Shown here piece after piece: positions 18,428-20,415 of a stretch of 64,000 bases of DNA. Made by a program: the position numbers and the translations under genes. Where the stretch lies: contig NCHA01000001.1 in assembly GCA_002257025.1 (NCBI GenBank), positions 62,001 to 126,000 on the forward strand, read 5' to 3'. The notes beneath the pieces are model-generated. The model was not told the origin of the DNA and did not search any database. It was given only the letters and a program-made list of their open reading frames with translations. Each line of letters opens with the position of its first letter. The first letter of the stretch is position 1. The stretch comes from Sphingobacteriales bacterium 16-39-50 (GTDB lineage: Bacteria; Bacteroidota; Bacteroidia; Sphingobacteriales; Sphingobacteriaceae).

Positions 18428-18610
18428 TTACTGAGCAGCAGCAGTATCAACAGCAGCAGCAGTATCAACAGCAACTGAATCAACAACTACAGTTGTATCC
18501 ATAACAGCAACTGAATCAGTAGCAACTTCTTCAGTTTTGTTTGAGTTACAAGCAGCAACTGATAAAGAGATAGCTAAAGCTAAAAAACCGAATTTGAAAG
18601 AATTTTTCAT
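18428..18610 (-). CDS. Small alanine/valine/threonine-repeat lipoprotein
   Basis: A 60-residue protein: signal peptide with lipobox (LSVAAC, cysteine at 21), then a mature part of only about 40 residues made of repeats such as DSVAVMDTTVVVDSVAV and DTAAAVDTAAA. The DNA shows matching tandem repeats of GCAGCAGCAGTATCAACA type, so repeat number could vary between strains. It has its own terminator and is divergent from the ECF sigma gene with a symmetrical upstream element between them, hinting at shared control. Many Bacteroidetes have such tiny lipoproteins, without known function; an entericidin-like or envelope-stress role is only a guess. Confidence 0.75.
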   Translation of the reverse strand: MKNSFKFGFLALAISLSVAACNSNKTEEVATDSVAVMDTTVVVDSVAVDTAAAVDTAAAQ

Positions 18611-18668
18611 TGTTTAGTGTTTTAATTTATTTATAAATAATTACTCTTAATACTCAATTACAAAAAAG

Positions 18669-18722
18669 GTAACCCAAGCTATTCAAAAAAAATAAAAAAT
18701 TATTTTCCTATCATTGGGTTAC
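18669..18722. promoter_or_regulatory. Divergent GTAACCCAA inverted elements
   Basis: Two perfect inverted 9-mers, GTAACCCAA (18669-18677) and TTGGGTTAC (18714-18722), lie in the 136-nt region between the small lipoprotein gene and the ECF sigma gene. Each contains an AAC core like those of ECF-type -35 elements and each points inward. They may be two sigma-dependent promoters or a distant-arm operator. This is inference from symmetry. Confidence 0.4.
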
Positions 18723-18746
18723 AATTCCTGATAAAAAGTATTAATA

Positions 18747-19313
18747 GTGAAAAAAGAGGTAAAAAGTTCAGTTCCAGCAGATAGTGAGATTGTATTGGGG
18801 ATACTGAATGATTCAAAGGAAACACTTAGCCGTTTATATATTTCCTATTTTCCTATGGTACTTCAATTAGTGCTAAAAAACAGTGGAAATGAGGATGACG
18901 CTAAAGATGTATTTCAGGAATCGGTTATCGTTCTTTACAATAAGGTTAAAGCTGGAAACTTTGAGCTAAACAGTAAGCTTAAAACATTTCTGTATTCTGT
19001 ATGCAGAAGGTTATGGCTTAAACGTTTAAATGAGCAAAGCAAGACGACCAGGAACATACAGGATTTTTCTGAGATCATTGCAGTTGAAGATGACCTTGAA
19101 AAGCATGAAGAAAAGGATAGACAGTTTGAACTAATGGAATCAGCTCTCATTCAATTGGGAGAACCTTGTAAAACTATTATTGAAGATTATTATATACACA
19201 ACAGATCAATGCAGGAGATCTGTGAGAAATTTGGTTATACTAATGCGGACAATGCCAAAACTCAGAAATATAAATGCTTGCAGCGTTTGAAAAAACTATT
19301 TTTTCAAACTTAA
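18747..19313 (+). CDS. ECF-type RNA polymerase sigma factor
   Basis: A 188-residue sigma-70 family protein of the extracytoplasmic-function class. Region 2 (about 25-95) includes NEDDAKDVFQESVIVLYNKV and the promoter-melting helix LKTFLYSVCRRLWLKRL; region 4 (about 130-185) has the helix-turn-helix NRSMQEICEKFGYTNADNAK. The start is a GTG at 18747. It is followed 10 nt later by a gene with an anti-sigma-like N-terminus, so the pair is cotranscribed and probably forms a membrane-controlled regulon switch. The symmetrical GTAACCCAA elements upstream could be its own promoter. Confidence 0.9.
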   Translation: MKKEVKSSVPADSEIVLGILNDSKETLSRLYISYFPMVLQLVLKNSGNEDDAKDVFQESVIVLYNKVKAGNFELNSKLKTFLYSVCRRLWLKRLNEQSKTTRNIQDFSEIIAVEDDLEKHEEKDRQFELMESALIQLGEPCKTIIEDYYIHNRSMQEICEKFGYTNADNAKTQKYKCLQRLKKLFFQT

Positions 19314-19323
19314 TCAGAAGAAG

Positions 19324-20415
19324 ATGAAAAGTGATTTGGAGTTAACGAATTTAATAGATGCTTATCTTAAGGGGGAATTAACAGGATCTGTCCTGGCTGA
19401 TTTTGAGCAATTGAGAAAAAGTGATCCTTCCTTTGATATGAAGGTTGTTGAGCATCGCAACTTTATTTTAAATTTATCTGATTACGGAAGCAGGGTTAAG
19501 CTTTCATCTGATATGAATGCAATTCATGAATCACTTGATATTCAAGCTATTAAAGATGAAGTAGCTCCCGAAGCACCAAAGCTAAGGCGCTTGTGGAAGA
19601 AATATCGTGTCAATACAGCTATTGCAGCTTCAGTTGCCTTTATAGCAGTTTCGGCTACCTTACTTTCAACTGGTTATTTTTCGAAGTCTATCTCAACTAA
19701 TGTTAACCTATTGCGTCGTGAAATTAACAGTATCAAACGTTCTCAGAATGCTTTGATCAAGAATATTAATGACAAACCTTCAAAAGGTCCCGCTGATCCG
19801 GGAGAGTTTGGAGGCACAGGTTTTGCTCTCTCATCAAATGGCTATGTAGTTACGAATTTTCATGTGGTTAAAGGTGCTGACTCGGTCTATGTACAAAACT
19901 CTGAAGGTGAAGCTTTTAAAGTAAAATTGATCTATATTGATCCTGCTTATGATCTGGCAGTACTTCAAATTACTGATCCTTCATTTGAGAAGCTGGCGAG
20001 TTTGCCTTATACATTTAAAAAGGCTGCTTCAGATGTGGGCGAAGATGTATTTACCATAGGATTTCCAAGAGATGAGCAGGTTTTAGGAAAAGGATATGTC
20101 AGCGCAAAAAATGGTTATGCTGGAGATACAGTCGCTTACCAGGTTTCAATTCCTGTTAATCCTGGAAATAGTGGTGGGCCATTACTGGATAATCGTGGAA
20201 ATGTTATTGGTATTATCAATGGCAAGCAAGCCTTGCTTGACGGTGCAGCATTCGCAATAAAATCATCTTTTATACTTAAATCAATAGAAGCAATCCCACA
20301 GGATTCTTTGGATGAAAAGTTGGTTGTGAACAAAAGAAATACCCTGGCTGGTTTAAGCCGTAAAGATCAGTTCAAGAAACTTGAACCATATATTTATATG
20401 GTTAAGGTTTATTAA
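19324..20415 (+). CDS. Anti-sigma-like membrane protein fused to a trypsin-like protease
   Basis: A 363-residue protein with three parts. Residues 1-95 are cytoplasmic and resemble the sigma-binding region of anti-sigma factors (LTNLIDAYLKGELTGSVLADFEQL), without a zinc HxxxCxxC motif. One membrane segment follows (about 98-118), then a coiled linker. Residues about 155-335 form a periplasmic S1C/HtrA-like serine protease with triad H180 (VVTNFHVV), D210 (AYDLAVL) and S283 (NPGNSGGPL). There is no PDZ domain after the protease. It lies 10 nt behind the ECF sigma gene. A likely role is sensing an envelope signal and holding or releasing the sigma factor; whether the protease cuts itself, the lipoprotein or other targets is unknown. 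Confidence 0.85.
   Translation: MKSDLELTNLIDAYLKGELTGSVLADFEQLRKSDPSFDMKVVEHRNFILNLSDYGSRVKLSSDMNAIHESLDIQAIKDEVAPEAPKLRRLWKKYRVNTAIAASVAFIAVSATLLSTGYFSKSISTNVNLLRREINSIKRSQNALIKNINDKPSKGPADPGEFGGTGFALSSNGYVVTNFHVVKGADSVYVQNSEGEAFKVKLIYIDPAYDLAVLQITDPSFEKLASLPYTFKKAASDVGEDVFTIGFPRDEQVLGKGYVSAKNGYAGDTVAYQVSIPVNPGNSGGPLLDNRGNVIGIINGKQALLDGAAFAIKSSFILKSIEAIPQDSLDEKLVVNKRNTLAGLSRKDQFKKLEPYIYMVKVY

Follow-up and report, generated by a model that had tools for sequence, protein, structure and literature searches.

An anti-sigma factor fused to a DegS-like protease domain and its linked ECF sigma factor: a predicted envelope-stress module conserved across an order of Bacteroidota

The window analysed here, 64,000 nucleotides of contig NCHA01000001.1 from Sphingobacteriales bacterium 16-39-50, carries a gene for an ECF sigma factor followed by a gene whose single product joins an anti-sigma domain, one membrane helix and a DegS-like serine protease domain. 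The composition of this module, its synteny, its promoter and its invariant catalytic triad are established below by sequence comparison. On this evidence we consider it somewhat probable that the locus encodes an autoregulated envelope-stress module in which the anti-sigma factor carries its own site-1 protease and is then processed by a site-2 protease and ClpXP. A bolder version, which we regard as possible but would sooner doubt than adopt, is a three-gene, order-wide circuit in which the anti-sigma factor would be its own regulated, PDZ-less site-1 protease and a sigma-controlled divergent lipoprotein would serve as its ligand, substrate or feedback inhibitor. The features of the locus are as follows (window positions).

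18428..18610, minus strand: gene for a small low-complexity lipoprotein of 60 aa with the lipobox VAAC; a divergent lipoprotein gene is present in 152/181 loci
18647..18675, minus strand: second, divergent copy of the predicted promoter, facing the lipoprotein gene; a divergent copy is present in 138/181 loci
18716..18744, plus strand: predicted sigma promoter GGGTTAC-N15-GTATTAA (putative autoregulation), present 5' of the sigma gene in 177/181 loci
18747..19313, plus strand: ECF sigma factor gene, 188 aa, GTG start
19324..20415, plus strand: gene for the anti-sigma/membrane helix/DegS-like protease fusion, 363 aa
19324..19569, plus strand: anti-sigma domain, residues 1-82, with helices 4-15, 21-33, 35-70 and 73-80 (AF2 pLDDT ~97)
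19612..19674, plus strand: single membrane helix, residues ~97-117 from the sequence (helix 87-115 in the model)
19624..19629, plus strand: A101-A102, candidate cryptic ClpXP tag, invariant in 182/182
19675..19803, plus strand: periplasmic coil/linker, residues 118-160, with a helix at 126-147; candidate site-1 region, where cleavage is presumed
19807..20292, plus strand: HtrA/DegS-type serine protease domain, residues 162-323, triad H180/D210/S283
20293..20412, plus strand: C-terminal helix and last strand, residues 324-363, ending in VKVY and taking the place of a PDZ domain

An earlier note, made from the letters of the window alone, had called the upstream gene an ECF sigma factor, and profile searches bear this out. 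The open reading frame at 18747-19313 matches Sigma70_r2 of Pfam (E 1.9e-7) and, over residues 26-183, the NCBIfam sigma70-ECF family TIGR02937 (E 1.7e-22), both above cut-off, with a weak Pfam match to sigma region 4 (E 0.1). It holds sigma regions 2 and 4 only, as expected of an ECF member, and the autoregulated promoter common to members of the group is predicted here as well. The GTG start lies 2 nt 3' of the -10-like TATTAA. Throughout the order the sigma gene starts with GTG or TTG 2-4 nt past this box (18739-18749 in the window), and in distant families an ATG is placed further downstream of it; as the start codon follows TATTAA by only 2-4 nt, the sigma transcript is perhaps leaderless. 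The sigma and fusion reading frames lie on the same strand with 10 nt between them.

A full-length relative of the fusion was found in 150/151 sampled genomes of the order; in the wider class it occurs in a minority of the other families, at identities down to ~30%. Among named contigs the nearest, from Daejeonella MAGs, carry a fusion protein 94% identical to that of the window. Locus pairs were fetched and aligned for 182 cases, and in every checkable locus (182/182) the sigma gene lies directly 5' of the fusion gene on the same strand. The earlier note had named homologues consistently lacking a sigma gene as evidence against its reading, and we found no such pattern: those without a sigma neighbour were either truncated at the edge of a contig (L040, L043, L048, L060) or weaker relatives (L145, L248-L251). 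The latter, from other families of the class, share mainly residues 160-361 and have a different N-terminus. Conservation in 150/151 genomes, together with this synteny, rules out the fusion as a local accident, and the comparisons support the view that sigma factor and fusion form one genetic unit.

The anti-sigma-like nature of the cytoplasmic part, also proposed in the earlier note, cannot be seen in the window protein alone, whose N-terminus has as its best Pfam match CnrY at E 0.06, below threshold. It emerges at the level of the family. Among 70 scanned fusion members, the NCBIfam anti-sigma factor model NF052375 matches 31 (best E 1.7e-6), zf-HC2 of Pfam matches 29, and two further anti-sigma families are also matched; no RsgI family was among the Pfam and NCBIfam matches of these members and the window protein. 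The only PDB matches of the N-terminal profile, PPAR nuclear receptors at E 0.015-0.04, were rejected as chance. When the domain profile was searched against 118 genomes of the phylum, shorter proteins lacking the protease were found besides the fusions, and in 20/20 fetched loci these adjoin a sigma gene. The C-termini of these 20 proteins (L280-L299) are TPR-, HEAT- or RskA-like, or are of no recognised type. Because such protease-less proteins adjoin sigma genes, the N-terminal domain appears to be a general Bacteroidota anti-sigma domain to which the protease is one of several attached parts. Judged from these family profiles, the N-terminal part of the fusion is an anti-sigma domain. Current models cover this domain poorly for many members across the phylum.

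Contact between the domain and the sigma factor was approached by modelling and by covariation. In loci where both genes are in frame, the separating stop was read as glycine; the resulting read-through chain of sigma factor and N-terminal domain was modelled with a pLDDT of 88.8 and a pTM of 0.83. We count this model as supportive only, since linkage in one chain forces proximity. Its nearest solved chains are the sigma factors of the AlgU-MucA and sigmaE-RseA crystals, complexes of the type in which the anti-sigma domain is sandwiched by sigma2 and sigma4. Superposition on known sigma/anti-sigma complexes gave an rmsd of ~13 A and E 0.004 or weaker, so that the domain arrangement is no copy of AlgU-MucA or sigmaE-RseA. 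Weighted mutual information was computed over the 182 sigma/fusion pairs; with ancestry controlled by the comparison with linker and protease alone, the top sigma couplings were twofold enriched in the N-terminal domain, versus 0.9 in the linker and 0.5 in the protease. The column entropy of the linker is close to that of the N-terminal domain. The strongest covarying pairs join sigma region 2 to helices 3-4 of the domain. The prediction that residues 1-82 bind the sigma factor is strongly supported.

The AlphaFold2 model of the fusion protein, built from 126 sequences (mean pLDDT 88.8), shows in order four N-terminal helices, a long helix including the membrane segment, the linker helix, the protease, and a C-terminal helix and strand. 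The single membrane helix claimed earlier is thus recovered, and because the motif W-K-K-Y-R precedes it, the positive-inside rule places the N-terminus in the cytoplasm. Residues 164-297 match Trypsin_2 of Pfam (E 1.2e-28), with DegP/HtrA as the closest curated families, and the best PDB fold matches of the protease domain are DegS-deltaPDZ structures (3lgv, 2qf0, 2rce). The triad given in the earlier note proved exact to the residue: H180 (codon 19861-19863), D210 (19951-19953) and S283 (20170-20172) are identical in 182/182 aligned homologues, at identities down to 29%, which supports strong selection on the protease to remain catalytic. The protein has the His-Asp-Ser trypsin-like domain of the HtrA/DegS (S1C) group and lacks its C-terminal PDZ. 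The absence of PDZ, noted before, agrees with our searches, as no PDZ family of Pfam or NCBIfam matched the fusion protein, and the last 40 residues are modelled with confidence as one helix and one strand.

Among the N-terminal 160 residues, A101 and A102, at the start of the membrane helix, are the only invariant ones, in a context that is mostly V/I-A-A-S. In C. thermocellum RsgI, XAA motifs of the membrane helix turn into ClpXP tags after RseP cleavage (PMC12203970). By this analogy we infer that the fusion family may be processed like RsgI, via A101-A102. The genome holds one M50 site-2 protease. The linker (118-160) is poorly conserved, as expected of a flexible substrate, and points to no cleavage site.

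The predicted promoter ties the locus to further genes. Exact matches to GGGTTAC-N15-GTATTAA were found in 80/81 genomes of the order, compared with 4 matches in all for the reversed pattern. Elsewhere in the class, the exact motif occurs in 14/25 genomes with the fusion and 0/25 without it, and is therefore tied to the sigma/fusion pair. In the genome of the window, matches with two mismatches (26, versus 51 for the reversed pattern) were treated as noise, and a site with one mismatch (G000:C71:161-189) is followed by no plausible gene. The interval described in the earlier note began at 18669, which falls at the divergent promoter pair. No Pfam family matched the divergent lipoprotein. These lipoproteins have low-complexity tails with repeats of the DSTAVDT or AAPAEE type, and their genes are sometimes two in tandem, each with its own GGGTTAC promoter. 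Sites away from the locus recur 5' of orthologous genes across genomes: before genes for DUF4294 secreted proteins in three Daejeonella genomes, for DUF4349 lipoproteins in six genomes from a single further genus as well as in one from Daejeonella, for DUF2459 membrane proteins in two genomes, and for a small membrane protein in three. As conserved sites precede them (L256, L258, L273; L257, L259-L264), the DUF4294 and DUF4349 families gain a predicted envelope-stress regulator. The regulon predicted from these sites is narrow and consists of envelope genes, and it is well supported by the promoter matches that the sigma factor drives, besides its own operon, the gene of the lipoprotein and a small number of envelope genes.

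The mechanism that we propose runs as follows. In unstressed cells, residues 1-82 would tether the ECF sigma factor to the membrane, away from RNA polymerase. The periplasmic DegS-like domain would be both sensor and site-1 protease and, once activated by an envelope signal, would cut the linker of its own chain in cis, or that of a neighbour in trans within an HtrA-type oligomer. By analogy with RseA and RsgI, the single M50 protease would next cut the membrane helix, and the exposed Ala-Ala end would be captured by ClpXP, freeing the sigma factor. Transcription by the freed sigma from GGGTTAC-N15-GTATTAA would then cover its operon together with the divergent gene for the lipoprotein and the few envelope genes.

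Invariant catalysis would be expected, too, of a protease acting on other envelope proteins, and this counts against the self-cleavage reading. In such a scheme the protease would act on misfolded or surplus envelope proteins, its occupancy would be relayed through the coil and the membrane helix, and the sigma factor would be released reversibly from an intact anti-sigma factor. The invariant triad, a linker without conservation as a cleavage site, and regulon sites preceding lipoprotein, secreted-protein and membrane-protein genes, as would fit envelope quality control, all favour it; we nevertheless judge it unlikely, if worth keeping in view, because the invariant A101-A102 fits intramembrane cleavage and ClpXP degradation and because, in those relatives of the design that are well studied, the anti-sigma factor is destroyed. 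It is also conceivable that the N-terminal domain is required for sigma activity and is no pure inhibitor, as some Gram-negative anti-sigma factors, FecR among them, activate. Such a dual role strikes us as very improbable, since the domain matches anti-sigma models, not FecR, and the autoregulated operon layout is typical of inhibitor pairs.

Lastly, the site-1 cut could be made by another periplasmic enzyme, with the fused domain acting mainly as a ligand-binding sensor. RsgI9, whose S1C-like domain binds polysaccharide, offers a precedent (PMC12203970), but a domain that served for binding alone should have lost its triad in some lineages, whereas H, D and S are invariant in 182 sequences, and we judge this alternative improbable. 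Under our preferred reading, with the site-1 cut made by the fused protease, the module would be a clean system for studying how a PDZ-less DegS-type protease stays off. The order-wide Bacteroidota module also gains testable predictions: an anti-sigma factor, a promoter and a small regulon.

ECF sigma factors, class I anti-sigma factors and HtrA proteases are all known, and the joining of an anti-sigma factor to a protease-like domain has a partial precedent in RsgI9. Like the class I anti-sigma factors (ASDI; RseA, MucA, RsiW, RskA), the fusion has an N-terminal helical domain that matches anti-sigma models, and it shows two features of that class, a profile-recognised domain (31/70) and an adjacent sigma gene (182/182). 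In that class helix 4 bears most predicted contacts (PMC7406223), and here sigma region 2 covaries with helix 4. The fusion differs in having a protease as its output domain; its anti-sigma domain has no cysteines and hence no zinc site. Bacteroidota ECFs have been reported as rarely linked to recognised ASDIs (6%, PMC7406223). With HtrA, DegP and DegS (S1C) the fusion shares the protease domain and triad, but its full length scores far under the family cut-offs, a 40-residue helix-strand tail stands in for the PDZ, and an anti-sigma domain precedes the protease.

The earlier note had contrasted known anti-sigma factors with the sensor and protease on one chain found here. Self-cleavage and signalling by protease state, which it suggested on that ground, are both candidate mechanisms; the promoter motif, the divergent lipoprotein, the invariant Ala-Ala pair and the conservation across the family go beyond that note. 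The single chain stands, but the implication that this occurs nowhere else was too strong: C. thermocellum RsgI9 is likewise a transmembrane anti-sigma factor with a C-terminal S1C protease-like domain, described as polysaccharide-binding, and a membrane-helix XAA motif (PMC12203970). RsgI9 is an orphan with another anti-sigma fold, and the self-cleavage of RsgI takes place in a separate periplasmic domain (PMC12203970), whereas the fusion is always linked to a sigma gene and its triad is invariant. The literature searched, with the ECF re-classification paper (NAR 2021) outside its range, yielded no description of the Bacteroidota fusion; what is new, to judge from that literature, is a pair whose members are always linked, with a triad that does not vary, a promoter of its own and a lipoprotein gene in divergent orientation. 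Another of its nearest known counterparts is RpoE-RseA-DegS-RseP of E. coli, with which it shares an ECF sigma factor, a single-pass anti-sigma factor, a DegS-type fold, an M50 protease and an autoregulated envelope regulon. It departs from that system in its GGGTTAC/GTATTAA promoter, in its divergent lipoprotein gene, in lacking the PDZ by which DegS reads OMP C-termini, and in uniting on one polypeptide an anti-sigma factor and a DegS-like protease that are two proteins in E. coli. If the fused protease makes the site-1 cut, the roles of RseA and DegS would be condensed in one protein.
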